Part shown: positions 1,920 through 19,521 of the stretch, piece by piece
Position numbering within the stretch: the stretch's first letter is position 1
Layout: each line of letters begins with the position of its first letter
From: Pirellulales bacterium
GTDB lineage: Bacteria; Planctomycetota; Planctomycetia; Pirellulales; JALHPA01
Reading direction: 5' to 3'
DNA length: 64,000 nt
NCBI GenBank assembly: GCA_033762255.1
Contig: JANRLT010000015.1
Location: 1-64,000 of the forward strand
The notes under the pieces: generated by a model
Told to the model about the DNA's origin: nothing
Seen by the model: only the letters and a program-made list of their open reading frames with translations
Databases searched by the model: none
Translations under genes and position numbers: made by a program

Positions 1920-4552
1920 CGCAGGCAATCTCACTATCAATGGAAGGGATGGCAAATTTGTCAGGCATTCTCGGTTTTCCATTGCTATTGGGGCAAACAC
2001 TTCCCCCCCGCTACGAATTTGCCCGGCTGCAGACCTTTACCGAAAACTGGCATTACGCCCTGTTGGCTGTCGTCTGCGCCGCGGTCATTGGATTTGTCAT
2101 TTATATGTATCGCCGCGACAGCGCCGAACTCCACCCCGGCGTGGGCGTGGCGCTGATGTTCTTGCGATTGGTTGCGTTTACGGGATTGCTGTTGCATTTT
2201 TTACATCTGGAAAAGCGCGACCCGCGGGTCGCGGTGGAACATTCGCAGGTGTTGGTCGCCATCGACAGCAGCGTTAGCATGGATCGCGCCGATATGTCGC
2301 CGGGGGGAGGGACCAGCGGCCCGGGACGGTTAGAGGCGGTGATCGAGTTTTTAAAAACCAGCCCCTGGTTGGATGAGTTGCGCAAACAGCACGAGGTGCT
2401 GCTGTACCGCTTTGATAACGAACGGCGGGCCATCGCCCGGCTGCCTAAGTTAAATACTCCCGCCGCCACCGGAAATAATGCTCCCCCATCAACCGCCACC
2501 ACGGGTCCAGAACCCGGCGGTACGGCCGGGACTGGCGGTATTTCCGGATTGAACAATGGCGAATACACCCTGCGCCCCCAGGACATCCGCTGGGAAGAAT
2601 TGACGGCAAATAAGGGGACGGAATCGCGCTATGGGCAGATGTTACGCGAATTCATCGCCGACCAAGGAAAGCAGCCCACGCTGTCCGCTTTGCTCTTGAT
2701 TGGCGATTTTGCCCATAACTCGGGCCTTGCTCCGGATATCGCGGCCAAGGACGCCGCCGCCGCCAAATTGCCTGTGCATACCGTGGGCGTGGGTTCCGCG
2801 GAAGTCCCGGTCAATATCAGCATCGCGGACTTTCGCGTGCCGCCGCGGGCCTATCCGCGGGATAAGTTCAAAATCGGGGCGCTGTTAACCGCACGGGGAC
2901 TGCCCCGACGCGGCGCTGGTACGGACGCCCAACAGGGCAGTTGCACGGTGACCGCGGACCTCTATATGAAGCCCGCCGCCGCCGATGGCAAGGAATCCGC
3001 CGATCCTGGGACGCTGGTCACAAGTCAAACGCTGAATTTGCGCGAAGGGACCGAGGAACCGTTCGAACATGAATTGCCGGGATTGCCCGATCCCGGCAAA
3101 TTGACTTTTACTTTGGTGCTCAAGGGGAGCGACCTTGCCAAGGACGCCAACAAGGCGGACAACCAGGCCCAGGGTGACCTAGAGATCGTGGCCCGTTCCA
3201 ATCGGGTGCTGCTATTTGCAGGCGGACCGATGCGCGAATACCAGTTTTTGCGCAATCAGTTGCATCGGGACAAATTCTCGGAGGTCCACATCTGCCTGCA
3301 AAGCGCGGAAGAGGGGATATCCCAGGACACGGGAAAAATTTTGGACTACTTTCCGCAAACGCGCGAGGAACTCGCCCAATACGATGTGATCGTGGCTTTT
3401 GATCCCAATTGGCAGGAATTGACCGAGGAACAAATTAAGCTGTTGGATGATTGGGTGGCCAAGGATTCGGGGGGCTTGGTGCTGATTGCCGGGCCGGTAT
3501 TTATGGACGAATGGTTACAGACGGACGAGCGCACTCGCAAACAGCTTAAAACAATTCGTTCGCTCTACCCGGTCGAATTTGACAGTCGACTGAGCGCGAT
3601 CAACAACTCCAAATTCGAAAACGAAACCGCTTGGCCGATCGAGTTTACCCCGGAAGGACGCTTGGCCGACTTTTTGTGGCTAGGTTCCACGGCCGAAGAG
3701 AGCGAACAAAACTGGCAGGACTTTACTGGCGTGTATGGTTTTTACCAGGTTCGCGGGCCAAAGCCGGGCGCGCTGGTGTATGGGTATTTTTCCAATCCCG
3801 ACGCCTCCAGCACCAGCGGCAAGCCGGTCTACATGGCGGAACAGTTTTGGGGGTCGGGCCGGGTGTTTTATCTGGGAAGCGGTGAAATGTGGCGGCTGCG
3901 ACGGTTGGGGGATGGTTATGTCGAGCAGTTCTATACAAAGCTGATGCGGCATGTCTCGCAGGGGCGGTTGTTGCGCGGGTCGCGCCAGGGGGCGTTGCTG
4001 CTCGACAGAGAGCGTTATGTCCAGGGAAGCCAGATCCCCTTGCGGGCCACCCTGCAGAACAGCCGGTACGAACCATTAGAGGCCGCCAGTGTCGAGGCCC
4101 GCGTGCTCTTGCCGGATTTAACTTCAAAGACCGTCCTCTTAAAAGCGACCCCCGACCGGCCGGGGTTGTTTAGCGGATTTTTTAACCCGCTGACCGTGGG
4201 GACGTATCAACTGCAACTTCCCATTCCCGACACCGACGAAATATTAACCAAACGGATTCAGATTACCGCCCCGCAGTTAGAGGTGGATAATCCCCAACGA
4301 AACGATGCCGTGGGCAAGACCATCGCCGATTTGACGGGGGGAAAATACTATGTCGGGTTGGCTGACTTACTGGGCAATACCGAGCGTGGCGTGCCACCGC
4401 TGGCGTCGCTGCTGACCGACCAAACGCGGGAGAAACGCGAATACGGCGTGGACCAGGACTTTGAGCGGGAATGGCTCAAGTGGCTCATGATCGGCATTGT
4501 GACGGCGCTTTGCCTGGAATGGATTATCCGCCGAGTTTGCCGTCTGGCTTGA
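1916..4552 (+). CDS. VWA / GATase-like membrane protein
   Basis: An 878-residue protein. I chose the ATG at 1916 because it overlaps the stop of the upstream gene (ATGA); the longer frame from 1820 lies inside that gene. Two N-terminal membrane helices (residues about 46-65 and 76-98) are followed by a VWA domain with a MIDAS-like DSSVS motif at residues 117-121 and a later LLLIGDF strand. A Gly/Thr/Pro-rich insert sits inside the VWA domain (about residues 180-220). The middle contains a class-I GATase-like fold (NRVLLFAGGPMREYQFL), without an obvious catalytic Cys, and the protein ends in one more helix (WLMIGIVTALCLEWIIRR). The MIDAS suggests metal-dependent protein binding at the membrane. 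The pairing of BatA-like and VWA/GATase-like proteins is common in planctomycetes. Biochemical function is unknown. Confidence 0.88.
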   Translation: MTQAISLSMEGMANLSGILGFPLLLGQTLPPRYEFARLQTFTENWHYALLAVVCAAVIGFVIYMYRRDSAELHPGVGVALMFLRLVAFTGLLLHFLHLEKRDPRVAVEHSQVLVAIDSSVSMDRADMSPGGGTSGPGRLEAVIEFLKTSPWLDELRKQHEVLLYRFDNERRAIARLPKLNTPAATGNNAPPSTATTGPEPGGTAGTGGISGLNNGEYTLRPQDIRWEELTANKGTESRYGQMLREFIADQGKQPTLSALLLIGDFAHNSGLAPDIAAKDAAAAKLPVHTVGVGSAEVPVNISIADFRVPPRAYPRDKFKIGALLTARGLPRRGAGTDAQQGSCTVTADLYMKPAAADGKESADPGTLVTSQTLNLREGTEEPFEHELPGLPDPGKLTFTLVLKGSDLAKDANKADNQAQGDLEIVARSNRVLLFAGGPMREYQFLRNQLHRDKFSEVHICLQSAEEGISQDTGKILDYFPQTREELAQYDVIVAFDPNWQELTEEQIKLLDDWVAKDSGGLVLIAGPVFMDEWLQTDERTRKQLKTIRSLYPVEFDSRLSAINNSKFENETAWPIEFTPEGRLADFLWLGSTAEESEQNWQDFTGVYGFYQVRGPKPGALVYGYFSNPDASSTSGKPVYMAEQFWGSGRVFYLGSGEMWRLRRLGDGYVEQFYTKLMRHVSQGRLLRGSRQGALLLDRERYVQGSQIPLRATLQNSRYEPLEAASVEARVLLPDLTSKTVLLKATPDRPGLFSGFFNPLTVGTYQLQLPIPDTDEILTKRIQITAPQLEVDNPQRNDAVGKTIADLTGGKYYVGLADLLGNTERGVPPLASLLTDQTREKREYGVDQDFEREWLKWLMIGIVTALCLEWIIRRVCRLA

Positions 4553-4623
4553 TTCCTACTTTCGATGCGTAATTTACCCGCTGATACCTTAAACTTTCAT
4601 TGCAGATTTTTACTTCCAGACGC

Positions 4624-7143
4624 ATGGCCACCGCTTCCGCACACGACCGCGCATTTTCGCAACTTTCCGAATTGCTCTCGAGCGTCCGCGCGCGATTGAG
4701 ACGGCATATTTGGCTGGAAGGGGCGTTGGCCATCTTAGCGCTCTTGTTTGCCGCTTTTTGGGTCACCCTGGGGATTGATTGGACCTTTGAGCCTCCTCCC
4801 TGGGTGCGGGGCCTCATGTTGGGGGTGGTGGGGGCGGGGGTCTGTTTTTTTATCGAGCGTTATTGGCTGCGGCGTCTGCGAGTGCCGGTCACCACTAACA
4901 ATCTGGCGGTGCTGCTGGAACGGCGTTATGGAAACTTTCGGGACAGTCTGATCACCACGGTCGAGCTGGACGCCCAGCCCGTCCATGCCGGGCAGTTCCA
5001 TCCCGACATGCTGGCCGCGACGCGCGGGATGGCGCTTGACCAGGTGCGGGAAGTGTCAATCGACCGCCTGTTTGATCGTACGGCCCTGACGCAAAAGTTT
5101 TTATTGGCGGCGCTCTTGGGGGGCGGGATGCTGGTATTTGCCCTTAATGCGGCGGAGCCGTTTCAGGTTTGGGTGCGGCGGTGCTTGTTATTATCCCCGG
5201 AACTTTGGCCGCGCAAGACGGCGCTGTCGATCACCGGTTTTGCCGATAAGGTCGAAAAGGTCGGCCGCGGGGGGGAGTACACCATCGTGGTGCAGGCCGA
5301 TCCAGCCAAGGTCGTGCCGGAAAAAGTCCTGATCCGCTATCAATACGAAGACGGTCTGCGGGAATCCCAACCCATGGAAGCGGCCCGCGTTACCGCCCCG
5401 GGGGAGCCGCGCTTATTTACATTCAAAATGGCGGACCTAAAGCAATCCGTCGCGTTTGACATTAGCGGCGGGGACGCCCGTCTCAGCGGTTACCAGATCA
5501 AAGTGGTGGATAACCCGGCTGTCGTCGAAAAAGCCATCCAGCAGACGTTTCCCGGCTATATGGGCCTGTCGCCAGCAACGGTCAAGGTGACCGACGCCCA
5601 GCAAATTCGCCTGGCGACAAACGCCGTCATTCGCGCCCGTACAAATAAGCCCCTGGCATCGCTGCGTGTCCAGCGCATCCAGGGGGAAGACGCCGCTACT
5701 GAATCGCTGGGCTATCGGTTGATCGATCCCACGCAGTTTGAGGTTGTGTTGGGGCCGGTGCTGGCCGACCAGACCATTACCTTTTCCCTGACCGACACTG
5801 ATGGCATCACCAGCCGTGATCCGGCGCGGTTGATGCTTAGCGTGTTGCCGGATGAGCCTCCCCAGGTGGGACTGCGCCTGACGGGTATCGGCAACGCCAT
5901 CACGCCGCAGGCCCGGCTTCCCCTGGTCGGGACACTCAATGATGATTACGGAATATCGCGCGTCTGGGTGGAATATCAAATCGAACAATCGGCCGACTTG
6001 CATCAACGGGAATTGATTTTGCCCCCTCCGCGCGGTTCGGAAAGTGTCAAAACCGTGGATTGGAATCCGCAGACCGTTCCCGACCGGTACAAGGAATACA
6101 CCGACGAAGCGCAATACCTGGGGCTGGACCTAGAGCGGTTGCGGCAAGCGGCCGAAGCGGCAAAGAAAAATGCCGCGGCGGCGCCTGCACCGGCTGTGCC
6201 TACACCAGCTGCGCCGGAATCCGCCGCACAGCCCGATCAAAACCCGGCCGCCGCCGGACCAGGGGCCGATGCCCCTACCGCCACCCCGCTCACGGTCAAA
6301 GTGGGCCAAAAGTTGGTTGTATTAACCAAGGCTCTGGATAATTCGACCTTGGAAAAGGGGCCATTTTTGGGGGCGGGAGAACGTTATACCCTGGAGGTGG
6401 TCTCGCCAGAGACCTTGGCCGCCATGCTCGAGGCGCGGGAAGTCGCCTTAAGGCAGCGTTTCGAGCGGATCATCGAGGAATTCAACATTACGCGCGATGA
6501 CTTGTACGCGATGCAGTTCACCATTCGGCAAAAATCGACCGAGACGGACCTGGACGAGTTGGAACGCGGCATGACCGAAGGAGCCCCCGGCACGGAGAAC
6601 GCCGCGGGTACGGGCACCGCACCGACACCGGCGGAACAACTGGAAATTCTCAGCCTGGAACGGCAGGAACTGACCAACCGCTCTCTGGAAAAACTGGAAC
6701 GCAGCTCCTTTGAAACACTCACCGTGGCGAACGCGTTTTTGGACATCTTGGCCGAATTCGAAAACAACCGCATCGGCAATGAGCAAATCGATCAGCGTTT
6801 ACGGCAGGAAATCGCCCAACCGTTAATCAATATTGCTGAAAAAATCGTTCCCCCCGCAACCACGGCCCAGCCGGTCAACAGCCAGCGGGAATCCCTGAAG
6901 GAACTCTTGGAACAGTTTAAGGCGGTTATCAACGACCCGGTGGCGGGTCCGCGGCGGCAAGCCGAATGTGTCGAACTGGCCGACAAGATTCTTTCCGAAA
7001 TGCGGGGAGTCCTGGATAAGATGCTGGAACTCGAGGATTATAACGCCCTGTTGGCAAAGCTGCGTAAGCTGATTGAGGAACAAAATCAACTCAATGATAA
7101 AACTCGCCAGGAGCAAAAGCGGCAACTTTTGGAAGGAACCTAG
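4624..7143 (+). CDS. DUF4175-like membrane protein with coiled-coil C-terminus
   Basis: An 839-residue protein. The ATG at 4624 is preferred to an in-frame TTG at 4600. Three hydrophobic helices lie in the first 180 residues (EGALAILALLFAAFWVTLG, a second near 62-80, and LLAALLGGGMLVFALNAA near 157-176). A long extracytoplasmic beta-rich part follows, then an Ala/Pro linker (about bases 6160-6290) and a charged, probably coiled-coil C-terminus rich in Glu, Arg and Gln. The layout resembles DUF4175 proteins of alphaproteobacteria, but this is resemblance of architecture rather than a clear motif match. It follows the VWA gene after 71 bases on the same strand and probably belongs to the same operon. 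The helical C-terminus could contact the equally helical C-terminus of the next gene product; that is inference. Confidence 0.8.
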   Translation: MATASAHDRAFSQLSELLSSVRARLRRHIWLEGALAILALLFAAFWVTLGIDWTFEPPPWVRGLMLGVVGAGVCFFIERYWLRRLRVPVTTNNLAVLLERRYGNFRDSLITTVELDAQPVHAGQFHPDMLAATRGMALDQVREVSIDRLFDRTALTQKFLLAALLGGGMLVFALNAAEPFQVWVRRCLLLSPELWPRKTALSITGFADKVEKVGRGGEYTIVVQADPAKVVPEKVLIRYQYEDGLRESQPMEAARVTAPGEPRLFTFKMADLKQSVAFDISGGDARLSGYQIKVVDNPAVVEKAIQQTFPGYMGLSPATVKVTDAQQIRLATNAVIRARTNKPLASLRVQRIQGEDAATESLGYRLIDPTQFEVVLGPVLADQTITFSLTDTDGITSRDPARLMLSVLPDEPPQVGLRLTGIGNAITPQARLPLVGTLNDDYGISRVWVEYQIEQSADLHQRELILPPPRGSESVKTVDWNPQTVPDRYKEYTDEAQYLGLDLERLRQAAEAAKKNAAAAPAPAVPTPAAPESAAQPDQNPAAAGPGADAPTATPLTVKVGQKLVVLTKALDNSTLEKGPFLGAGERYTLEVVSPETLAAMLEAREVALRQRFERIIEEFNITRDDLYAMQFTIRQKSTETDLDELERGMTEGAPGTENAAGTGTAPTPAEQLEILSLERQELTNRSLEKLERSSFETLTVANAFLDILAEFENNRIGNEQIDQRLRQEIAQPLINIAEKIVPPATTAQPVNSQRESLKELLEQFKAVINDPVAGPRRQAECVELADKILSEMRGVLDKMLELEDYNALLAKLRKLIEEQNQLNDKTRQEQKRQLLEGT

Positions 7144-7178
7144 GCAGGGCGCGGAGGGCCAGGGAGGATGGCAATGAC

Positions 7179-7203
7179 ACAAAGCCGCCGATGCTAGCGG
7201 CGG
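7179..7203 (+). repeat. Short palindromic repeat, copy A
   Basis: It reads ACAAAG followed by CCGCCG-ATGCTAG-CGGCGG, a 6-bp stem with a 7-base loop. The same ACAAAGCCGCCGATG core recurs at 24362-24386 (minus strand) and 42259-42283, and a decayed copy lies at 63710-63735. All copies are intergenic. Confidence 0.7.
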
Positions 7204-7344
7204 GTATAGGGGGGGCACAGGGGCAGGGGGGTGGCGTTGCCCTGGAAGGCCTCACTTTTTCGGTATAATTGGAACTTTTTTACCCCTTGGGGTACTAAGT
7301 ATTAACCAGAATTTGCTAGCCAGCTTTTGGTCAAATATGTTAAA

Positions 7345-7374
7345 TTGATGAAAATTGTGTTTGCGCGGTATAAT
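7345..7374 (+). promoter_or_regulatory. Possible sigma70-type promoter in the 373-base gap before the SG-repeat gene
   Basis: TTGATG (7345-7350) and TATAAT (7369-7374) are 18 bases apart, about 140 bases upstream of the ATG at 7517. A second TATAAT lies at 7264-7269 without a good -35 box. The gap (7144-7516) is otherwise AT-rich and shows no ORF. It also contains palindromic repeat copy A. The call rests on box matches only. Confidence 0.4.
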
Positions 7375-7516
7375 TTGGCATGAAAAGTGTTGGTTAACCT
7401 GGAATTTGGGATTTCCCCCCCTTTTCCGGGCTTATGATGGCTAGCTGCCTAGGAACTAGGCGATCCGACGCTCTTACCCCTTTCAAAGTCCACTTTTGCT
7501 AGCTTCTGGGTCCTCT

Positions 7517-9751
7517 ATGCACTCCTCCCCACGCCTCATTTGGAATGTTTTTTTAAGTCTGCTCTTGGGGATTGGTCTGGTTAAACTGGCCCTAGCCCAA
7601 CAAGAGGGGGAAGAGTCGACCACCCCCGTGATCAAGGGTTCGCTGCCGCAAACGCAGGAACGCCTGGGGAACGAATTTCAAGATATCGAAAAGCTGATTT
7701 CCCGCTTAGCGCAGTCTTATGCCAAACAAGACCCTAAAAAGGCGGAGATCTTGCGACAGGCGTTTTCCACCAGCAAGCAAACGGGGATTGCGCTCAAATT
7801 TGACGAAATCGCGGCCTTGCTGCAGGAAGGGGAGTTTGCCAACGCGGGCAAGGGGCAGGGCCAATTGCAAAAAGACCTGCAAAAATTGCTGGAACTGCTG
7901 CAAAGCGGGGACCAACAAAAGGAGATCGATGACGAAAAAGCCCGGCTCAAGGAATACATTGCCCGGCTGCAGCGGCTGATTAAGGACCAAGAAGGCAAAA
8001 TCGCCCAGAATGAAGGGGGGGTGGACCCGCGTGAACTGGCCACCCAGCAGAACAACACCGCGGACAAGACGGGTCAACTGGCGGACGACATTGCCAAAAC
8101 CGAGGGCAAAAACGGCAAGAACCAATCGGGCGAGCAAGATTCCGGCAACAACCAAAATGGCAAAAACGCCAACGGCAAAAACGAGTCCGGCGATAATAAA
8201 TCCGGGGATCGCAAGAATGGTGACAGTAAATCGGGCGATGCAAAATCCGGTGACTCTAAATCGGGCGATTCCAAATCCGGCGACAGTAAAAATGGCGACA
8301 GTAAATCCGGTGATAGTGAAAAGGGAAACAGTGAAAAAGGAAACAGCGAATCTGGCAAAAACGAATCGGGCGACAGTAAATCCGGTGACTCTAAATCGGG
8401 TGATTCCAAATCCGGTGACAGTAAAAATGGCGACAGTAAATCTGGTGATAGTGAAAAAGGAAACAGTGAAAATGGAAACAGCGAATCGGGCAAATCCGAA
8501 TCGGGCAAATCCGAATCGGGCGACAGTAAATCCGGCGACTCAAAATCAGGGGACAGCAAGTCCGGGGATAGCAAATCCGGAGATAGTAAGTCCGGGGATA
8601 GCGAAAGTGGCAAATCCGAGTCCGGCAAAAGCGAGTCTGGTAAAAGCGAATCTGGCAAGTCTGAATCGGGAAAGAGCAAGTCCGGCAATAGCAAATCCGG
8701 CGACTCTAAATCGGGCGAGTCCAAATCCGGCGACAGTAAGTCAGGAAATAGCGAATCAGGGGATAGCGAATCGGGAAATACCGAAAGCGAAGGGGGCGAA
8801 TCAGGCAATAGCCAATCGGGTGACAGCAAATCCGGGGATAGCAAGTCCGGGGATTCCATCACCCGCCGCGGGGATCAATCGGGTGAAGAGGGCGAAAACG
8901 CCGAACCCCCTCCCGCCGGCTCGGAAGACGTACCCGCCCGTAAGCGGTTAAAAGCCGCCGAAGAACGGATGCGCGAGGCCAAAATCAAGCTGGAAAACGC
9001 CAAGCGTACCCAAGCCCTCGATGCGCAAAAGAAAGCCCTCCAAGAACTTCAGGCTGCCAAGCAAGAATTGGAAGAGATTTTACGCCAGTTGCGAGAAGAA
9101 GAATTGGAGCGGGTGTTGGCCCAATTGGAGGCCCGCTTTCGCAAGATGCTGCAACTGCAAATTCAAGTCTACATGGCAACCAAGGGGATGGACAACCGCC
9201 CGGACGAGGAGCGGGGCCGCGACTTTGAAGTGGAAGCGGTCAAACTTAGCAAGCGTGAAAAAGTCATCATGGACGAATGCGATAAAGCGCTCATGGTGCT
9301 CAAGGAAGAAGGCTCCGGCGTCGCCTTTGCCGAGGCCGCGGAACTCATGCGCGAAGACATGGGGGGAGTCGCCAACCGACTCGAACGAACGAATGTGGGC
9401 GTGGTCACCCAGGGACTGGAAGAAGACATTATTCGCGCCCTTGAGGAAATGATCGCCGCCCTGCAAAAAGCCCAAAAAGAATTGCAGGCGGGAAAAGGTG
9501 GCGGCGGGGGAGGCGGGGGCGGACAACCGGATGACCAGCCCCTGGTTGATAAAATCGCCGAACTAAAAATGATTCGCTCCATGCAAGAACGCATTTTGCT
9601 GCGCACCCAGCGTTATGGCAAATTGCTGCAAGGCCCTGATGTCGAACAAGCGGAAAAACCCGAATTGGTCGAAGCGATACAGGGATTGGGAGAGCGCGAA
9701 GAGCGTTTGCACAAGGTTACCCGCGATATTGTGGTTGGACGCACCGAATAA
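7517..9751 (+). CDS. Secreted protein with Ser/Gly/Asp/Lys pentad repeats and coiled-coil flanks
   Basis: A 744-residue protein. The ATG at 7517 gives a normal signal peptide (IWNVFLSLLLGIGLVKLALA, cleavage before QQEGEE); the upstream TTG at 7496 only adds residues. The N-terminal third is helical and charged. Roughly bases 8100-8860 encode about 45 imperfect five-residue units of the type S-G-D-S-K, varied to N-G-D-S-K, E-K-G-N-S and S-G-K-S-E. The C-terminal part is again helical (LKAAEERMREAKIKLENAK), with a Gly7 run near base 9505. The repeat should be hydrophilic and disordered, a spacer between two coiled coils in the periplasm. A block of about nine pentads is duplicated at DNA level (see findings). 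It sits between the DUF4175-like gene and another low-complexity secreted protein, suggesting one envelope assembly. I do not recognise a named family. Confidence 0.88.
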   Translation: MHSSPRLIWNVFLSLLLGIGLVKLALAQQEGEESTTPVIKGSLPQTQERLGNEFQDIEKLISRLAQSYAKQDPKKAEILRQAFSTSKQTGIALKFDEIAALLQEGEFANAGKGQGQLQKDLQKLLELLQSGDQQKEIDDEKARLKEYIARLQRLIKDQEGKIAQNEGGVDPRELATQQNNTADKTGQLADDIAKTEGKNGKNQSGEQDSGNNQNGKNANGKNESGDNKSGDRKNGDSKSGDAKSGDSKSGDSKSGDSKNGDSKSGDSEKGNSEKGNSESGKNESGDSKSGDSKSGDSKSGDSKNGDSKSGDSEKGNSENGNSESGKSESGKSESGDSKSGDSKSGDSKSGDSKSGDSKSGDSESGKSESGKSESGKSESGKSESGKSKSGNSKSGDSKSGESKSGDSKSGNSESGDSESGNTESEGGESGNSQSGDSKSGDSKSGDSITRRGDQSGEEGENAEPPPAGSEDVPARKRLKAAEERMREAKIKLENAKRTQALDAQKKALQELQAAKQELEEILRQLREEELERVLAQLEARFRKMLQLQIQVYMATKGMDNRPDEERGRDFEVEAVKLSKREKVIMDECDKALMVLKEEGSGVAFAEAAELMREDMGGVANRLERTNVGVVTQGLEEDIIRALEEMIAALQKAQKELQAGKGGGGGGGGGQPDDQPLVDKIAELKMIRSMQERILLRTQRYGKLLQGPDVEQAEKPELVEAIQGLGEREERLHKVTRDIVVGRTE

Positions 9752-9813
9752 CCCGGCCTGGTTTTGCTTTTTTGGATGAGACGACATATTTTCCTTGGCG
9801 AGGCGGATTACTC

Positions 9814-11139
9814 ATGAAACTGAAATTATTGCGACAACAGGGCCTGTGGGTCTGCCAGGCAGCAAGTGTGATGGCAGACCGTAAAACGGCAGTCCAAAAG
9901 GGGACGGCCTTGGTGGCTTGTTGGGGCGTGGCGTTGTTCATCGTCGCAGGTTCTTTATTTGCCCAGGATGCCCCCGCACCCGCGTCAGATCCGGCAGTGC
10001 CCGCCTCTGATCCGGCAGTGCCCGCGACGACCCCAGCTACGCCGACACCAACCACGCCCGCGGAAACGCCTGCGCCTGGCGCGGTTCCCACACCCCCCGC
10101 CGAGTCCCCCCCGCTAATTCAATCCAATTTTGGCGCGAATGAATTCACCAGTCAGGCCTCTTGGTCAATCCCCACGGCGGCCACGGCGCGGCGGCAGTTA
10201 ATGGAATATCTGGACCAAATCCAAGCGACCGCGCAGCAGCGAGATCAAGTATTGACCCTGTGGCCCGAGACGGAATCGGGGGCCTTGCAGCCTGGAGAGA
10301 TGCTTGACCGTTTGGCCGGCAGCCTGGCCGTGGTGGATCCCCGGGTGGCGGCCTTAGCGGATTTTTGCCGTCAACACCGGTCTGAGCGACTCTCCTGGAA
10401 CTTTGACTGGCTCAACGATAGCGCCACGCATCCATTTGTCTCCCGCAACCTGCGGGTCTATTTTGGCCGTTGGTTGACCCAAGAGCGCTATTACGAGGAA
10501 TCGCTGCTCATGTTGGAAAAACTGCAACCGACCGAGGTGCTGGATCCGATCTCGTTGTTGTTTTTTCAAAGTGTGAACTATCACACCCTGCTTTTCAAAA
10601 ACGAAGGCCTGCAGACCATTGCCAAACTTTTTCAGCGGGCCGAGGAACTGCCTAAGCGCTATCGCTACCTGGGCTTGAGTATGCAACTGGATTTGCAGGG
10701 TCTCAAGGAGGATTCATTAGACCACGTGTCGCGGCGGATGAGCGATATTCAGCGGCGGCTCGATTTTGGCCGATCCGGCAAAAAGGTCCAGGGGGAAGAG
10801 CGAAAAGTGATTGCCGCCTTGGATAAACTCATCGAAGAATTAGAGAAAGAGAAAAACGGCCAAGGTCAGGGACAAGGCCAGGGCCAGGGTCAAGGGCAGG
10901 GACAGGGATCGGGCCCGCCAAATGGCATACAATCCAGCGGCCCCGCCAGCGAGAGCCAGATCGCGCGTGGCAAGGGGAACGGCGATAACGCCCGTAAAAA
11001 TATCGGCAGCAAATCGGGCTGGGGAACGTTGCCAGCCAAGGAACGGGAAGAAGCCCTTCAGCAAATGGGGAAGGATTTTCCTTCGCATTACCGCGAAATT
11101 GTCGAGGAATACTTTCGCCGCCTGGCGGAGGCCGAATAA
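9814..11139 (+). CDS. Secreted or membrane-anchored Pro/Ala- and Gln/Gly-rich protein, function unknown
   Basis: A 441-residue protein from the ATG at 9814. An alternative ATG at 9871 would put the hydrophobic segment (TALVACWGVALFIVAGSLFA) closer to the N-terminus, which is more usual for a signal peptide. An Ala/Pro tract follows (about bases 9966-10110), with the unit DPAVPAS repeated. The middle is helical, possibly repeat-like, with no motif I can name. A run of about seven Gly-Gln dipeptides lies at about 10858-10910, and the C-terminus (ALQQMGKDFPSHYREIVEEYFRRLAE) resembles the tail seen in many planctomycete proteins next to DUF4175-like genes. It is 62 bases downstream of the SG-repeat gene on the same strand and probably co-transcribed with it. 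Confidence 0.82.
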   Translation: MKLKLLRQQGLWVCQAASVMADRKTAVQKGTALVACWGVALFIVAGSLFAQDAPAPASDPAVPASDPAVPATTPATPTPTTPAETPAPGAVPTPPAESPPLIQSNFGANEFTSQASWSIPTAATARRQLMEYLDQIQATAQQRDQVLTLWPETESGALQPGEMLDRLAGSLAVVDPRVAALADFCRQHRSERLSWNFDWLNDSATHPFVSRNLRVYFGRWLTQERYYEESLLMLEKLQPTEVLDPISLLFFQSVNYHTLLFKNEGLQTIAKLFQRAEELPKRYRYLGLSMQLDLQGLKEDSLDHVSRRMSDIQRRLDFGRSGKKVQGEERKVIAALDKLIEELEKEKNGQGQGQGQGQGQGQGQGSGPPNGIQSSGPASESQIARGKGNGDNARKNIGSKSGWGTLPAKEREEALQQMGKDFPSHYREIVEEYFRRLAEAE

Positions 11140-11379
11140 TCCCGCTCCGGATTTTCGCACTGCAAGGCGATTTTGCCTATAATGGACACAATGAGGCACC
11201 CAGGCTGGGCGGGATGCCAATACTCGGTGGTTCCGGTGAACTTGCCGGTAGGTGACTTGCCAGGCAGGGACCGATTGTATTAGGCGGTATCCCGGCCAAG
11301 GCAGCCTCCCCGGGGGCATTGAATGCTACCGGCGCGGCAGTTGCCAGTTTTTAATGTAAATTTCCCGCGGGAATTATCC

Positions 11380-12585
11380 ATGCAAGTATTTTGGGCCATC
11401 TTATCAGGCGTTTTATTGGCGGCTAGCGATGGGGATTGGACCGTTGCCACCATGGATGGCCAGAACATCCAGGGTAAAATAGGCAGCTTTTCCCCCACGG
11501 CCTTGGAGCTGACCACTCCCGCGGGTTCCACGGTTTCCATTCGCGCCAATCAGCTCAAGACGCTTACACCCCTGGTCGCTCCCGCTCCCTCCCTTACAAA
11601 GCCCGCGGTCTGGGTGGAGTTATTGGACCGCACGCGTTTGGCCGCACTCACCTTTGAGACCAAAGGCCAATTCGCGCAAGTTGAGTTACTGAATGGGGAA
11701 AAATTGGAGATTCCCCTCGCCGAATTGGCCACGGTTCAGTTTAGCGAAGAATTTAACCCCGATTTGCGCGCCAAGCAGGCGGAGGCCGCGGGGGATCAAA
11801 TTGGCGTGAAAAAGAAAGCCAGTGTGGATTATCTCGAAGGCGTTCTGGGGGACGTAACCCGGGACGCGGTCAATTTTAAACTGGATGGCGACAACATTCC
11901 CGTGAATCGCAATAAAATAGCCAATCTGATCTATGTTGCTAAAAATCCCCGGGAATTCGACGCGCCCTTCGGTTTATTAATCGACTCCATGGGTGCGGAA
12001 TATGCCGTGGCCAGATTGACACTCACCCCCGCAAAATTTCAAGTAACAACTTTAGCGGGCATCACGGTGGGGGTGCCGCGGGACACCGTGCGCAAGTGGG
12101 ACTTTAGCGGCGGCAAACAGCAGTATCTTAGTGAATTAACCCACGAGAGCATCGCCGTCACTCCTAATCCTCTCTTGTATAAGGCGGATGTGCCCAATTT
12201 GGCGTTATATTTTGCCCCGCGATTTGATCGAGGGCATTTTGGCGAAAAATTTTTATTAGAGGGGCAGGAGTATGCCAAGGGAATCGGTTTGTCCACCAAA
12301 ACCGAATTGATCTACAAACTTCCCCCCGGATACAAACGCCTGCAGGGACTGGTTGGCCTGGATGATGAAGTGGGGGATGAGGGGGAAGTATTATTCGTCA
12401 TTTTGGCCGATGGCAAAGAACTGCTCCGGCAAGTGGTCCGTGGCGCGGATAAGCCGCTAGGTGTGGATGTCAGTATTGCCAATGTGCGCAAGTTGACATT
12501 AATCGCCGATTATGGCGAAGGGGCTCCACTGGCGTTGGACCTGGGGGATAAACTGAATTTTGTCGACGCGCGTTTGATAAAGTAA
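11380..12585 (+). CDS. NPCBM-like secreted protein
   Basis: A 401-residue protein. The ATG at 11380 gives a short signal-like segment (MQVFWAILSGVLLAAS); the TTG at 11323 would add residues that do not look like a leader. Several LTTPAGSTVSI and GEKLEIPLAELATVQF segments look like repeated small beta domains, common in planctomycete proteins. The C-terminal 150 residues match the NPCBM (novel putative carbohydrate-binding module) pattern: GQEYAKGIGLSTKTEL, a YKRLQGLVGLDDEVG strand-turn and a final LTLIADYGEG strand, which in that family precede a carbohydrate-binding face. Likely envelope or exported carbohydrate binding; not proven. It ends the co-directional cluster before the protease trio. 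Confidence 0.8.
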   Translation: MQVFWAILSGVLLAASDGDWTVATMDGQNIQGKIGSFSPTALELTTPAGSTVSIRANQLKTLTPLVAPAPSLTKPAVWVELLDRTRLAALTFETKGQFAQVELLNGEKLEIPLAELATVQFSEEFNPDLRAKQAEAAGDQIGVKKKASVDYLEGVLGDVTRDAVNFKLDGDNIPVNRNKIANLIYVAKNPREFDAPFGLLIDSMGAEYAVARLTLTPAKFQVTTLAGITVGVPRDTVRKWDFSGGKQQYLSELTHESIAVTPNPLLYKADVPNLALYFAPRFDRGHFGEKFLLEGQEYAKGIGLSTKTELIYKLPPGYKRLQGLVGLDDEVGDEGEVLFVILADGKELLRQVVRGADKPLGVDVSIANVRKLTLIADYGEGAPLALDLGDKLNFVDARLIK

Positions 12586-12687
12586 CACTTGATTTTCCCC
12601 GCCGATATCCGCCGCCGCGGTGGATGTCCCAATTCGTGAGGCTGCTTTTACCCCCGCGATCATTTCCCTTCCTTTTGAAAGCTGGCT

Positions 12688-14718
12688 ATGACAAAGATTC
12701 TTATATCCGGGATGACGCGCCGAAAAATCGCGGTCACAAGCGGGTTATTGTTGGCCGGGTTCATTTGGGGTGGGGGATGGTTTGCTCCGACACATTCTCC
12801 CGCCGCCGAACTCGATCCCGCCGTCGCCCAGCTAGAAGCCGCGCGCATCGCCGCCGTGAATAAGGCGCAGCCCAGCGTGGTGGCCGTCTTTGCCAAAGGG
12901 GGCGAAGGGGGTGGCTCTGGCGTGGTCATAACGCCCGACGGCTACGCCCTGACCAACTTTCACGTGGCCAAACCCTGTGGCAACTTCATGAAATGCGGAC
13001 TCCCCGATGGCAAGTTATATGACGCGGTCATCGTGGGAATTGATCCCGTGGGGGATGTCGCGCTGATTAAGCTGCATGGGCGGGAGGATTTTCCCGTGGC
13101 GGAAATGGCCGACAGCGACCAGGTGCAGGTGGGGGACTGGTGCTTTGCCATGGGAAATCCGTTTTTGTTTGCGACCGATTTTACGCCGACCATTTCCTAT
13201 GGCGTGATCTCGGGGACGCATCGCTATCAGTATCCGGCGGGGACGCTCTTGGAGTATGCCGACTGCCTACAGACCGATGCCGCGATCAATCCCGGCAACT
13301 CCGGCGGGCCCCTCTTTGACGCCGCCGGACGGCTCATTGGCATCAACGGGCGCGGCTCTTTTGAAAAACGCGGACGCGTAAATGTGGGCGTGGGTTACGC
13401 GATTTCCATCAATCAAATCAAAAAATTCCTGGGGGCATTGCGTAGCGGGAGAATTTTAGACCATGCGACCATGGGGGCTCAACTCAGCACGTCCGACACC
13501 GGCAAAGTGGTGGTAACAAATATACTGGAGGAATCGGACGCGTTTCGGCGGGGATTACGCCCCGATGACGAAGTTTTATCGTTCGCGGGCAAGCCCGTGA
13601 AAACCGTCAACGGTTTTAAAAACATCCTGGGGACCATTCCCCGGGATTGGAGGGTGCCGCTCACTTTTCGCCGCGAAAATGAGGAATTTAGCATTTTAGT
13701 TCGCCTGCGCGGCGTCCATCGCGAGGACGAATTGGCGGCGATCATGGCCGGCGAAGGGGAAGAAAAGCCTCCCGGCAAAAGGCCGGATGGACCCCCGCCA
13801 GAGAAAAAACCGGCGATCCCCGGTTTGCCCCTGGAAAAATTGTTTGGCAAGGAAAAAGAAGATGGTCCCCCGGCGGAGCTAAAAAAGCAGTTTGAGGCAC
13901 GCACCGGTTATGCCAACTATTTTTTTAACAAGCTGGAACAAGACCGCCTGTGGCGGCAATTGAATCAACTGGGGGACTTTAAGGATTTATCCGGCACCTG
14001 GAAGCTATCCGGCGAGGTTGGACCCCGCGCCCCGTTTGAATTCGAACTCGGCCCGCAATCGGCCAAGGCGACGCTGCCGGTCGGAGATACCGAAATCGAT
14101 GTGACGGGTGGTTTGGCCGAGGCGCTGAATCCCCCCGGCAGCGGCGGACTGTTGGCCGCGCTGCACCTGTGGAAAAAATACGTCGTGGGGGGACCGGCTA
14201 AATTTGGCAAGTTGGTTTACCTGGGCCAGTTGCCCTTGGCCAATCGACCGGACCTATGCGATGTGCTGGTCGGCACCACCGACGAGGTGGATATCCGCTT
14301 TTACTTTGATCCGCAAAGCCATTTGCTGACCGCCCTCGAGTTATTCACCGATGAAGCCAACGATCCCTGCGAGGTGTACTTTGATGGTTATCAAGAAATC
14401 GAAGGACGCCAGTGGCCGCGGCAGTTGACTGTGCAGTACGGCGACCGGACGTTTGGCGTGTTTCCCCTGACAAAAGTCGTGGCGGAATCCGCACTCAAAA
14501 AACCTGATGAAAAAGCCGCGGCCGCGCCCGCCACTGCCGGTGCGGCAGCGGAAAACGCCGCCACCATGAAAGATCCTCCCGCCGCTGATTCAGCGGAACC
14601 CGCGACCACAGAGGAAAAAACTACTCCGGCCGATTCCACCCCCGAAAAGCCCGCCGCCGACCCCTTTGGCGATTCTGCTCCCAGCGAAAAAACTCCCCCC
14701 ACGGAACCGGGCAAATAG
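12688..14718 (+). CDS. S1C (HtrA/DegP-like) serine protease with PDZ and C-terminal extension
   Basis: A 676-residue secreted protein. The catalytic triad is intact: His92 in TNFHV, Asp123 in GDVALIKL, and Ser205 in NPGNSGGPL. A hydrophobic leader (TSGLLLAGFIWGGGW) precedes the protease domain (about 50-235). A PDZ domain follows (about 245-345, VVVTNILEESDAFRRGLRPDD). Residues about 345-400 are a charged Pro/Lys/Glu linker, and a beta-rich domain fills about 410-605 (FYFDPQSHLLTALELFTDEA), loosely like LolA-type lipoprotein carriers; the tail is Ala/Glu/Pro-rich. HtrA-family proteins degrade misfolded envelope proteins. It is the first of three adjacent trypsin-fold genes and the only one with a working triad. 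A TTG-like in-frame start exists only at the second Met; the ATG at 12688 is kept. Regulation is not visible. Confidence 0.93.
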   Translation: MTKILISGMTRRKIAVTSGLLLAGFIWGGGWFAPTHSPAAELDPAVAQLEAARIAAVNKAQPSVVAVFAKGGEGGGSGVVITPDGYALTNFHVAKPCGNFMKCGLPDGKLYDAVIVGIDPVGDVALIKLHGREDFPVAEMADSDQVQVGDWCFAMGNPFLFATDFTPTISYGVISGTHRYQYPAGTLLEYADCLQTDAAINPGNSGGPLFDAAGRLIGINGRGSFEKRGRVNVGVGYAISINQIKKFLGALRSGRILDHATMGAQLSTSDTGKVVVTNILEESDAFRRGLRPDDEVLSFAGKPVKTVNGFKNILGTIPRDWRVPLTFRRENEEFSILVRLRGVHREDELAAIMAGEGEEKPPGKRPDGPPPEKKPAIPGLPLEKLFGKEKEDGPPAELKKQFEARTGYANYFFNKLEQDRLWRQLNQLGDFKDLSGTWKLSGEVGPRAPFEFELGPQSAKATLPVGDTEIDVTGGLAEALNPPGSGGLLAALHLWKKYVVGGPAKFGKLVYLGQLPLANRPDLCDVLVGTTDEVDIRFYFDPQSHLLTALELFTDEANDPCEVYFDGYQEIEGRQWPRQLTVQYGDRTFGVFPLTKVVAESALKKPDEKAAAAPATAGAAAENAATMKDPPAADSAEPATTEEKTTPADSTPEKPAADPFGDSAPSEKTPPTEPGK

Positions 14719-14797
14719 CCGCTTTCCCGGATATCACGCGTGATGGCCCGTAAGGCACGTTTCCAACTTGAGTTCCCTTTATTCATTAACATTATCC

Positions 14798-15880
14798 ATG
14801 TCCTCCCGACTTTATTTTTGCCTTGCCGGGCGACACCTGGCGGTTTTGATTTTGGCCGCGCTTTGGGCGGGGTCAGCGCTGGATTGCCCGGGGGGGACAA
14901 ATTTGCCCCAGATTATTCGCGACGCGCAGGCCAAGCAAGTCAAGTTATACGGGGCGGGTGGGTTTCGCGGGTTAGAATCCTACCAGTCTGGTTTTTTAAT
15001 TTCGCCGGCGGGGCATATCTTGACGGCGTACAGTTATGTTTTGGATGCGGACTATATCACGGCCACCCTGGACGACGGGCGCAAGTTTGAAGCCAAGTTG
15101 TTGGGGGCCGATCCCAAATTGGAAGTCGCGGTGCTAAAAATCGAAGCCCCCGACAAAGAACTACCTTTTTATGATTTGACCCAGGTGGCCACGGCCGTTC
15201 CCGGGACGCGGGTGCTGGCGTTTAGCAATTTGTACGGCGTGGCCACTGGCGACGAACCGGTCAGCGTGCAGCGGGGCGTGGTTTCCTCCTCCACAAATTT
15301 AGAAGCCCGCCGCGGCGGCTATGACACCTTGTATAACGGTCCGGTCTATGTACTGGACGCCATGACCAACAATCCCGGAGCCGCGGGGGGAGCGCTCGTT
15401 AACTTGCGGGGCGAACTGCTGGGCATGCTGGGCAAAGAACTGCGCAACGCCCGCAATAACATCTGGCTAAACTACGCGGTCCCGATTTCCGCGCTAACCG
15501 AGGCGATCGAACGAATCAAATCCGGCAAAGCGCCCCCCGTGGGTAATGACCGGCCCAACCGCAAATTGCCCAACCCGCTCACGCTAAAGGCTTTGGGGAT
15601 TGTGCTGGTCCCGAATGTCTTGGAACGCACGCCGCCGTTTATTGACGAGGTGCAATCCGGTTCACCCGCGGCGCGGGCGGGTCTGATGGCTGATGATCTG
15701 ATCTTGTTTGTGGATGAACAATTGGTGCAGTCATGCCAGGCGCTCAATCGCTTGCTCGAGCGGATCGAACTGGAAACCCCGGTTAAGGTCATCATCATGC
15801 GTGAACGGATGCAGGTTCAGGAATTATTGGAAGTCACGTTGCAAGTGACCGCCGAACCTGCCGCCGCGGCCAACCCCTAG
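14798..15880 (+). CDS. Trypsin-fold pseudoprotease with PDZ (all three triad residues replaced)
   Basis: A 360-residue secreted protein (leader LAVLILAALWAGSALDCP). It aligns by eye to the S1C protease upstream: the usual TNFHV position reads TAYSYV (His to Ser79), GDVAL reads KLEVAV (Asp to Glu109), and NPGNSGGP reads NPGAAGGA (Ser to Ala196). The fold-defining glycines and the strand pattern remain, so the domain is probably folded but not a peptidase. One PDZ domain lies at about 270-350 (IDEVQSGSPAARAGLMADD). The reading frame is complete and the substitutions are conservative in size, which argues for a maintained role, such as substrate binding or regulation of a neighbour, and against random decay. 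The gap to the preceding gene is 79 bases. The start at 14798 (ATG) is preferred to TTG at 14768. Confidence 0.88.
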   Translation: MSSRLYFCLAGRHLAVLILAALWAGSALDCPGGTNLPQIIRDAQAKQVKLYGAGGFRGLESYQSGFLISPAGHILTAYSYVLDADYITATLDDGRKFEAKLLGADPKLEVAVLKIEAPDKELPFYDLTQVATAVPGTRVLAFSNLYGVATGDEPVSVQRGVVSSSTNLEARRGGYDTLYNGPVYVLDAMTNNPGAAGGALVNLRGELLGMLGKELRNARNNIWLNYAVPISALTEAIERIKSGKAPPVGNDRPNRKLPNPLTLKALGIVLVPNVLERTPPFIDEVQSGSPAARAGLMADDLILFVDEQLVQSCQALNRLLERIELETPVKVIIMRERMQVQELLEVTLQVTAEPAAAANP

Positions 15881-15943
15881 GGTTGCGATTGATCGGGGTT
15901 GTTGTGCTTTTCACCCTACAAAATTTTACCAACGGCTGATCGT

Positions 15944-17986
15944 ATGTTTTGCGTGTTTGGGAATTGGCGAACTTGGTTGTTACTTGCCGCCGCGCTGTTG
16001 GTTGGCCCCGCTGTCGGCCGTTCCCAAGAATCGCCCCCCGGCGTCGATCCGTACGAAGCCGCCATCCAGGCCGCCGCTGAAAGCGTGGCTCCCCTGCTGG
16101 TGCGCATCGAGACACTCGGCGGATTTGAAAAAGTGGGTGACACCTTGATCGGGTCGGGGCCTACGACGGGTCTGGTGGTCAGCGCCGAAGGGCACATTCT
16201 TTCCAGCGCGTTCAACTTTGCCCAAAAGCCCGCGCAAATCCTGGTGTATCTGCCTGATAATACCCGTTATCCCGCGCAGTTGGTCGCCACGGATCATGGA
16301 CATAACGTCGTTTTGCTAAAGATCGAAACCGATCGCCAGTTGCCGCTTCCCTCGGCCGCTCCGGCGGCGGAGATTGCCGTGGGACAAACGGCGATCGCCG
16401 TGGGGCGGGCCTTTGACGGCGATAAGCCAAACCTCTCTGTTGGCGTGGTAAGCGCGGTAAATCGTATTTGGGGCCGCGCCATCCAGACCGATGCCAAAAT
16501 CTCCCCCAACAATTACGGCGGTCCGCTGATTGATCTGCGCGGCAGGGTGTTGGGCATACTTACACCGCTTAGCTTGACCCCCGGGGCGGATGACGCCGGT
16601 GTCGAATTGTACGATTCCGGGATTGGTTTTGCCGTTCCGCTGGCTTCCCTCGAGCGCGTCCTGCCGCGACTGAAAAAAGGGGAAGACCTGTATCCGGGGC
16701 TAATGGGTATCAGCCTCAAGGGGGGAGACCTGTATGGCACTCCCGCGGTGATCTCCGCGGTGCAGCCCAACACTCCCGCGTATGCGGCGGGATTTAAGGC
16801 GGGGGACACCGTGGTAATGATCAATGAAAAGCCGATCACCCGCCAGGCCGAGTTAAAGCATGCCCTGGGGCCGTTTTTTGCCGGGGATACCGTCACCGTC
16901 ACGGTGAAGCGTGGAAAAAAGGAGACTCTGGAGCGGCAGATTAAGCTGATCGCCAAATTGGCCAAATACCAACACCCCTTTTTGGGGATCTTGCCGTTAC
17001 GGGCCGCTGATCAGGAAAATGTAAAGGAAAAAGAGGACGCGGCGGACAATGAAAACAAACCGGCAAGCTCCAACGAAGGTGGCTTGGTGGTGCGGTCCGT
17101 GTATCCCGATTCCCCCGCCGCCAAAGGAGGCGTGCAACCGGGGGACGTGGTCATTTACGCGGATGAAAAGCCCATTGAGGAACGCGCGGCCTTGGCGGAT
17201 TATTTAAATTCCCTGACAGTCGCGGACAAAGTCACACTGCGCGTGCGTCGCGCCGGGGGAGAGCATACCATCGCCTGCACCCTGGACAAACTGCCCGAAA
17301 CCGTTCCGCTGGATTTACCCCCCGCGCGCCAGCCAGCGACGCCCCCCGCCGGAGATCCCCCCCGCACCGGCTTGATCACCTTTAAACTGCCCGAAATCGC
17401 CAATGAATGTGTCGCCTACGTTCCAGAAAGTTATCAAGCCAACGTGCCGCACGGTTTGGTGATCTGGCTGCATCCCGCTGGCGCTTATAAAAACGAGGAA
17501 TTAGCCGCCCAATGGAAGGATCTCTGCTCCAAATATGACCTGATATTGGTTGCTCCCAAAAGCGCTGATGTGACACGCTGGCAAAAAAGCGAGTTGGAGT
17601 TCATTCGCAAGGCAGCGGACGACATCATGGCCAAATATAATATCGACCGCCCGCGGATCACCGCCATCGGCCAGGATGGCGGGGGAGCCATGGCGGCACT
17701 CTTGGCGGCGCAGCATCGCGCACTGGTGCGGGGTGTGGTGTTGATCAACTCCCTGCTGCCCAACGGCATCAAAATTCCCGAAAATGACCCTAATTATCGC
17801 CTTGCCATGGTATTGGCGGGGCCGGGATTGGGAAAGACCGGCGAAAAATATCAGGAACTGGTAAAAAAACTGCGTGACATGAATTATCCCGTCAGCGTGC
17901 TCAATCAAGGGGAAGTCGGGCGTCCCCTGACGGAACGCGAACTACTGGAGGTGATTCGCTGGCAAGATTGTTTGGATCGATTGTAA
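15944..17986 (+). CDS. Trypsin-fold pseudoprotease, two PDZ domains and an alpha/beta-hydrolase domain with no nucleophile Ser
   Basis: A 680-residue secreted protein; the ATG at 15944 is followed by a signal peptide (WLLLAAALLVGPAVGRSQ). The trypsin fold lies at about 40-235; the triad positions read Phe90 (for His, in ILSSAFNFA), Asn121 (for Asp, in GHNVVLLKI) and Tyr191 (for Ser, in SPNNYGGPL). Two PDZ domains follow (about 255-345, with AYAAGFKAGDTVVMI, and 385-460, with AAKGGVQPGDVVIYA), then a Pro linker and an alpha/beta-hydrolase domain of the esterase/PHB-depolymerase type (WLHPAG near 508, and IGQDGGGAMAAL). The usual G-x-S-x-G nucleophile elbow reads G-Q-D-G-G, placing Asp578 at the nucleophile. 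The whole protein therefore looks non-catalytic. It follows the previous gene after 63 bases. Confidence 0.88.
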   Translation: MFCVFGNWRTWLLLAAALLVGPAVGRSQESPPGVDPYEAAIQAAAESVAPLLVRIETLGGFEKVGDTLIGSGPTTGLVVSAEGHILSSAFNFAQKPAQILVYLPDNTRYPAQLVATDHGHNVVLLKIETDRQLPLPSAAPAAEIAVGQTAIAVGRAFDGDKPNLSVGVVSAVNRIWGRAIQTDAKISPNNYGGPLIDLRGRVLGILTPLSLTPGADDAGVELYDSGIGFAVPLASLERVLPRLKKGEDLYPGLMGISLKGGDLYGTPAVISAVQPNTPAYAAGFKAGDTVVMINEKPITRQAELKHALGPFFAGDTVTVTVKRGKKETLERQIKLIAKLAKYQHPFLGILPLRAADQENVKEKEDAADNENKPASSNEGGLVVRSVYPDSPAAKGGVQPGDVVIYADEKPIEERAALADYLNSLTVADKVTLRVRRAGGEHTIACTLDKLPETVPLDLPPARQPATPPAGDPPRTGLITFKLPEIANECVAYVPESYQANVPHGLVIWLHPAGAYKNEELAAQWKDLCSKYDLILVAPKSADVTRWQKSELEFIRKAADDIMAKYNIDRPRITAIGQDGGGAMAALLAAQHRALVRGVVLINSLLPNGIKIPENDPNYRLAMVLAGPGLGKTGEKYQELVKKLRDMNYPVSVLNQGEVGRPLTERELLEVIRWQDCLDRL

Positions 17987-18567: not shown

Positions 18568-18576
18568 ATTCTTGGC

Positions 18577-19521
18577 ATGGCCGAAGATTACTATAGTTTA
18601 CTGGGCGTGCCCCGCACGGCGACCAGCGCGGAAATCCTCAAGGCGTATCGCGGCCTGGCGCGCAAGCACCATCCCGACCTCAATCCCGACGATAAGCAGG
18701 CCAAACAAAAGTTTCAGCAAATCCAAAAAGCTTTTGAAACGTTGAATGACGCCGAGAAGCGAAAGTTGTACGACCAGTTTGGAGCCGATTATGAGCAACT
18801 CGGTGCCGGTGGCAGGCCGGGGGGTGGAGCTCCTTACGGCGGGGAATGGTCGGGAACCATGCCGGAGGGATTTGAGGGGATCGATCTAGGGGATTTATTG
18901 CGGGGATTTGGCATGGGCGGGGGGCCGACGCCCGATCCCGTTCGCGGGACCAAGACCCGCGCCCGTCGCGGTCGCGCGGCGCAACCGGGTGACGACGTGC
19001 AGCGTGAAATCCTGGTCCCGTTTACCACGGCGGTTTTGGGGGGCAGCCTGGATGTGCCGGTCCAGCGGCCCGATGGCACGCTCGAGACCCTGGCCGTAAA
19101 AATCCCAGCGGGAATCGCCGCGGGGGGCAAAATTCGCTTGCGGGGCAAGGGAGGCCCCGGCGTCAACGGCGGTCCGGCGGGAGATCTGCTGCTGATCGCC
19201 AAGCTGGGGGGGCATCCCTATTTTAGCCGGGACGAACTGGATTTAGAGGTCAAGCTGCCCATCACCCTGGCCGAGGCGCTCCACGGTGCCAAGGTGGATG
19301 TGCCGACACCGGCAGGAGTGATCGCGCTAAAGATTCCCCCCGGGACAAATAGCGGCCGCCGCTTGAGGGCCAAGGGGCGGGGCATTGCCAAGGGGGACGG
19401 TACCACCGGCGATTTATACGCCGTGGTCCAAATTCAACTCCCTGAGGAAATTTCCCCGCAACTGCGCGCCGCCATAGACCAACTTCCAGAGGAAAATCCG
19501 CGCCAGGACCTAAAGTGGTAA
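18577..19521 (+). CDS. DnaJ/CbpA-type co-chaperone
   Basis: A 314-residue protein from the ATG at 18577; the upstream extension to 18457 runs through the inverted repeats and is not expected to be coding. The J domain fills residues 1-70 (DYYSLLGVPRTATSAEI, with the HPD motif that stimulates DnaK ATPase in KHHPDLNPDD). A Gly-rich region follows. The central zinc-finger repeats (CxxCxGxG) of full DnaJ are absent, which marks it as CbpA/DnaJ type B. The C-terminal substrate-binding sandwich is present (QREILVPFTTAVLGGSLDV, IPAGIAAGGKIRLRGKG). It acts in the cytoplasm with DnaK in protein folding. No dnaK or grpE is in the window. Confidence 0.93.
   Translation: MAEDYYSLLGVPRTATSAEILKAYRGLARKHHPDLNPDDKQAKQKFQQIQKAFETLNDAEKRKLYDQFGADYEQLGAGGRPGGGAPYGGEWSGTMPEGFEGIDLGDLLRGFGMGGGPTPDPVRGTKTRARRGRAAQPGDDVQREILVPFTTAVLGGSLDVPVQRPDGTLETLAVKIPAGIAAGGKIRLRGKGGPGVNGGPAGDLLLIAKLGGHPYFSRDELDLEVKLPITLAEALHGAKVDVPTPAGVIALKIPPGTNSGRRLRAKGRGIAKGDGTTGDLYAVVQIQLPEEISPQLRAAIDQLPEENPRQDLKW

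Follow-up and report, generated by a model that had tools for sequence, protein, structure and literature searches.

The gene g3, at positions 15944-17986 on the forward strand of the analysed 64,000-nucleotide stretch of a Pirellulales contig (the window), encodes a predicted exported double pseudoenzyme, in which a dead HtrA protease and a dead alpha/beta hydrolase are joined in one chain and which probably binds and regulates rather than cuts. Judged from sequence and gene order, g3 is, with moderate confidence, a conserved, non-catalytic member of an HtrA trio and acts as an adaptor or regulator partner of the live HtrA protease encoded by g1.

Translation and Pfam searches gave a protein of 680 amino acids with a signal peptide (the N-terminus was judged by eye), an HtrA domain, two PDZ domains, and a C-terminal hydrolase domain. 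The start is an in-frame ATG at 15944, with an upstream TTG at 15899 as a possible alternative. Pfam matched Trypsin_2 (E 2.2e-22) followed by PDZ_2 in two stretches (E 3.6e-29), the domain order of Do/HtrA serine endopeptidases, and matched Abhydrolase weakly at the C-terminus. The trypsin-like domain spans 16052-16633 (Trypsin_2, alignment), the first PDZ domain 16697-16924 (PDZ_2, residues 252-327), and the second 17087-17251 (PDZ_6, residues 382-436). The pseudo alpha/beta-hydrolase domain, which is esterase/PHB-depolymerase-like by profile and fold, spans 17351-17983 (residues ~470-680); the preliminary description had recognized this domain but placed its start slightly too late, at 17400. 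The full-length AlphaFold2 model has a pLDDT of 91.7.

All three residues of the protease triad are lost from g3, not Ser alone: His is replaced by Phe90/Asn91, Asp by Asn121, and Ser by Tyr191, whose TAC codon (16514-16516) lies within NNYGG at the aligned position of the nucleophile. The register of these columns was confirmed by match to DegP-like PDB proteins; that of the His is ambiguous by one residue (F90 or N91), and no orthologue has His at either position. Among 126 distinct full-length orthologues, the Ser column holds Tyr in 125 and Val in one (motif N-Y-G-G), the His region contains no His, and the Asp column no Asp. The His-Asp-Ser triad with GNSGG of active Do/HtrA endopeptidases is thus absent from g3.

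The C-terminal domain is predicted to adopt a canonical alpha/beta-hydrolase fold. Modelled in isolation with AlphaFold2 (pLDDT 94.7, pTM 0.92), its best structural match is the esterase LC-Est1C (3wyd; Z 20.6 over 182 residues), and Foldseek returned many esterases, with rice GID1 (3ed1) also among the matches. An HPAG oxyanion-loop remnant is found at 17471-17482 (residues 510-513; H510 is kept in 66 and G513 in 88 of the 126 orthologues), and a degenerate nucleophile elbow, G-Q-D-G-G, at 17669-17683 (residues 576-580), with Asp578 encoded by GAT at 17675-17677. Both motifs are present as they were first described. Had the true elbow been intact and elsewhere, the domain would need another reading; the family profile instead pairs the G-Q-D-G-G stretch with the G-x-S-x-G elbows of LC-Est1C, feruloyl esterase (8jh8), and PHB depolymerase (8daj), and it also pairs with GFSAGG/GFSSGG of planctomycete relatives that bear G-x-S-x-G. 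As candidates for such an elsewhere-placed elbow, the G-x-S-x-G strings in the C-terminal domains of other orthologues were rejected, being mostly out of register.

The nucleophile column (578) holds Gln in 44, Glu in 29, Gly in 24, Lys in 11, Arg in eight, Asp in six, Ala in three, and Ser in one of the 126 orthologues. The single Ser (L046) sits in the exact column, where its close relatives carry Lys or Arg. The elbow glycines stay (G576 in 125/126, G580 in 116/126, G581 in 106/126). The acid and His columns were located by alignment with two triad-keeping relatives (L181, L182), and neither residue, whose survival the preliminary description had left to be checked, is kept: the acid expected after strand 7 maps to GPGLG (626-630), where no acidic residue is conserved in the orthologues, and the His column is Arg660 in the window, Arg in 59/126 and His in 3/126. 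The G-x-S-x-G nucleophile with acid and His of active esterases and PHB depolymerases is absent, and g3 scores below the curated cut-offs (48.6 vs 150 for NF050058; 31.9 vs 107.85 for TIGR01840). Loss of the nucleophile from both folds, as originally proposed, is therefore seen throughout the 126 orthologues, and in the protease it extends to the whole triad. Trp546 is present in 126/126 orthologues; since Trp546, Asp568, and Arg571 also occur in the G-x-S-x-G-bearing relatives, they look inherited and structural. A search for a phage origin of the hydrolase domain gave no PHROGs match.

Two readings of the hydrolase domain can be weighed against this evidence. The idea that Asp578 is a working nucleophile in the style of haloalkane dehalogenases or epoxide hydrolases, raised earlier as a switched chemistry, draws on the Asp at the exact nucleophile position of the window protein, but is scarcely credible given that Asp occurs in so few orthologues, that the residue following it in those six is G, L, A, A, S, or T and never Trp, and that the acid and His positions are empty. 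The dehalogenase/epoxide hydrolase signature (G-x-D-W-G with a catalytic His) is missing from g3, and profile similarity to dehalogenases (E about 0.08) is confined to the elbow, compared with 5e-12 for LC-Est1C. Because the nucleophile column is variable and the acid and His are lost, Asp578 counts as a tip-level variant at a site already dead, where several different residues have taken the place of the lost Ser. That the whole domain is a decaying remnant without function would fit the lost catalytic residues and its absence from some lineages, yet this is very improbable: in close species pairs dN/dS is mostly 0.04-0.2 for the hydrolase domain (two identical comparisons give 0.36, at very low divergence), the frames are open in all full-length orthologue matches listed, and the C-terminus is fixed and conserved. 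The protease domain gives mostly 0.02-0.09 in close species pairs, and decay of g3 as a pseudogene was rejected on dN/dS and the open frames. Dead folds that stay under selection, together with an old and family-wide loss of both active sites, are what a protein that binds or regulates would be predicted to show; the original suggestion of a dedicated binding protein built from dead enzymes is thus partly supported.

The C-terminal tail, -LDRL (17972-17983), is a fixed end in 126/126 orthologues: the hydrolase-bearing proteins share a common last alignment column, and the final residue is I/L/F/M/V in 122/126. Across a 77-member set that includes the window, with the last residue numbered -1, Leu stands at -4 in every member (77/77), Asp at -3 in 76/77, and Arg at -2 in 71/77; the tail mostly reads -LDR[ILF] with a hydrophobic end. 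The C-termini of g1 and g2, in contrast, are ragged and unconserved. We hypothesize that the fixed tail may be a PDZ ligand; the C-terminus of another operon member, gB, is also fixed, so a fixed end alone is no proof of this. The last residue has a pLDDT of 55 in the domain-only model and the last four average 96 in the full-length model, a gain that hints at a contact with another domain. Hydrophobic C-termini switch HtrA PDZ domains, and DegS and AlgW have YxF and WVF ligands (PMC8545111). The fixed g3 tail would suit such a switch, but unlike these ligands it has Asp at PDZ position -2 (last residue = 0).

Nine forward-strand genes, gW to g3 (42-17986), form a block whose order is conserved across the class and in which g3 is last. 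Immediately upstream, g2 (14768-15880, start codon uncertain) encodes a second dead HtrA (Trypsin_2 and PDZ by Pfam and alignment), with the catalytic Ser changed to Ala, degenerate His and Asp columns, and conserved motifs of its own; the catalytic column is Ala or another non-Ser residue in 71/71 orthologues. Before it, g1 (12688-14718) encodes an HtrA with PDZ and an intact triad (H92, D123, S205; Pfam, alignment), the proposed live partner; all copies that could be read keep the triad (His and Asp 62/62, Ser 65/65). Further upstream are gB (11323-12585), an NPCBM-domain protein by Pfam and gene order, and gA (9772-11139), gZ (7517-9751, repeat-rich), and gY (4600-7143), operon members by conserved gene order, gA and gZ having no Pfam match and gY none above the cut-off. 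Within gZ, 8000-8900 is a long low-complexity repeat of SGDSK/SGKSE type, mirrored by long open reading frames in other frames. The vWA-type protein gX (1916-4552) was assigned from an orthologue (L177:4564-7062) that matches VWA weakly, and gW (42-1919), a partial BatA/vWA-type gene cut by the contig start, from one (L177:2188-4560) that matches BatA and VWA_2.

At loci with enough sequence, direct linkage upstream of g3 is found for g2 in 66/68, g1 in 60/61, gB in 52/53, and gA in 50/52. Relatives have MoxR and DUF58 (shown in L189 and L190), followed by gW (BatA and vWA; BatA/vWA in L177), gX (vWA), gY, and gZ; the window begins at base 1 of the contig, inside gW, and MoxR and DUF58 are thus known from the relatives alone. 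The predicted operon is MoxR-DUF58-BatA/vWA, continuing to the live HtrA, the dead HtrA, and g3. Promoter and terminator scans gave counts near those of shuffled controls. A DnaJ-type co-chaperone gene lies shortly downstream of g3, at 18574-19521; such a gene is close to g3 in few relatives only, on the other strand (L103, L108, L116).

Some match to g3 (HtrA paralogues included) was found in 97/97 genomes searched in the order, most with a clear orthologue. A scan of GTDB contigs with the single g3 protein as query gave no match; the alignment query succeeded, finding 563 relatives, and the best 80 of 563 that were kept are, by title, nearly all planctomycetes. Homologues with both domains occur throughout the order and class, so the two-domain protein is not a chance product. 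Full-length g3 with the hydrolase domain is found in the window's order and class and in one genome outside (G225), where the extra sequence upstream of the trio (L237) held no operon genes. At 12 loci elsewhere in the phylum, a dead g3 with NYGG lacks the hydrolase domain and tail; at every one of these whose contig reaches far enough, g1 (GNSGG) is its neighbour, and 10 of the 12 have a detected g2. The trio of one live and two dead HtrA proteins is thus also found in other planctomycete classes. In at least one other Pirellulales genome (G007, L187:1437-2616), g3 retains NYGG while the second PDZ domain, the hydrolase domain, and the conserved tail are all missing, and other short g3 frames in the order suggest the same absence of the hydrolase domain. 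Most simply, this distribution would reflect an old trio that acquired the hydrolase domain on the lineage towards the class, with some later losses. As g3 does without it at L187 and at the other-class loci read, the hydrolase domain is dispensable, and its role must be accessory. A search of the open-access literature found no published description of the protein or trio.

The live g1 and dead g2 beside it in the operon give g3 a likely partner, and we infer the g3-g1 partnership from gene linkage and sequence. HtrA proteases typically form trimers. Once exported, g3 and g2 would assemble with g1 through their HtrA domains (the trimer surface), PDZ-peptide contacts, or both, and act as its adaptors or regulators. 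The PDZ domains and catalytically empty hydrolase fold would offer binding sites for clients or envelope ligands, which would then be handed to g1, or would alternatively set g1 activity; the fixed hydrophobic C-terminus of g3 may dock in a PDZ domain, and Asp578 would do no chemistry. A bolder form of this proposal, tentative and on balance unlikely, is an undescribed envelope proteolysis machine of Planctomycetota, comprising a MoxR/vWA operon and a live HtrA with two dedicated dead HtrA proteins, in which the third subunit gained an already dead esterase domain in Planctomycetia and -LDR[ILF] is an intrinsic PDZ ligand by which the live protease is switched.

It is distinctly unlikely that g3 acts alone as a receptor, with the dead esterase pocket binding a small molecule or polymer and the HtrA/PDZ part transmitting or anchoring the signal. 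Parts of the fold and pocket are indeed kept (G513, G576, G580, and Trp546, at the frequencies above), and rice GID1 was among the Foldseek matches, but a nucleophile column this variable is unlike a conserved ligand contact, the residues shared with G-x-S-x-G-bearing relatives look structural, and since g3 is constantly linked to g1 and g2, a role shared with these two is the likelier. It is also quite improbable that g3 (and g2) work independently of g1 as proteolytically dead HtrA chaperones for unfolded envelope proteins, with the hydrolase domain as a structural cap: the operon has kept a live HtrA, which points to the proteins acting together. HtrA proteins can serve as chaperones in addition to being proteases (PMC3169616), and the DnaJ-type gene after g3 in the window would suit such a role, although it seldom lies near g3 in relatives. 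An adaptor or regulator of g1 remains the favoured reading of g3.

Examples of pseudoproteases and of pseudo-hydrolases are known separately, but one chain that combines a dead protease with a dead esterase and persists through a bacterial class is unusual. With genes for one live and two dead HtrA proteins in several planctomycete classes, it becomes testable whether, in bacteria, a live HtrA has its activity or its choice of substrate set by dead subunits. The arrangement also offers a clue to what an uncharacterised MoxR/vWA operon does in a phylum whose envelopes are unusual. The wider operon arrangement is of more interest than Asp578 itself.

Among known systems, g3 resembles DegP/DegQ/DegS in its trypsin-like and PDZ domains (TIGR02037 E 2.4e-54; PDB profile match to DegP E 1e-48) and differs in lacking the whole triad, scoring below the family cut-off, and carrying a hydrolase fold at the C-terminus. 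The HtrA-like pseudoprotease MamO of magnetosomes promotes proteolysis by MamE without an active site of its own; the two proteins were not found in physical contact, and a transporter domain was the part required (PMC4794232), which makes the precedent a functional one only. MamO and MamE parallel g3 and g1 in that one gene cluster encodes both the dead HtrA-type protein and the live HtrA. MamO has a TauE-like transporter domain and metal binding and comes from a different phylum, whereas g3 has two PDZ domains and a dead esterase domain, no Pfam match to a TauE-like transporter domain, and a locus that adds another dead HtrA within a MoxR/vWA operon; similarity of g1, g2, and g3 to MamE/MamO models is weak and far below the cut-off. 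With LC-Est1C, the Lihuaxuella PHB depolymerase (8daj), and feruloyl esterases, g3 shares the predicted fold, topology (Z about 20), elbow, and D-x-x-R region, but its domain is short, lies behind PDZ repeats, and lacks the nucleophile Ser, acid, and His. GID1 is a dead alpha/beta hydrolase that serves as the gibberellin receptor and so uses this fold for binding, not catalysis, as proposed for g3; it is distant from g3 in sequence and is a stand-alone plant receptor with a lid. Bat-type MoxR/vWA operons bring together a MoxR AAA+ ATPase, DUF58, and BatA/vWA proteins, as does the g3 operon of relatives, which, unlike them, runs on through genes for a repeat protein, an NPCBM protein, and three proteins of HtrA type.
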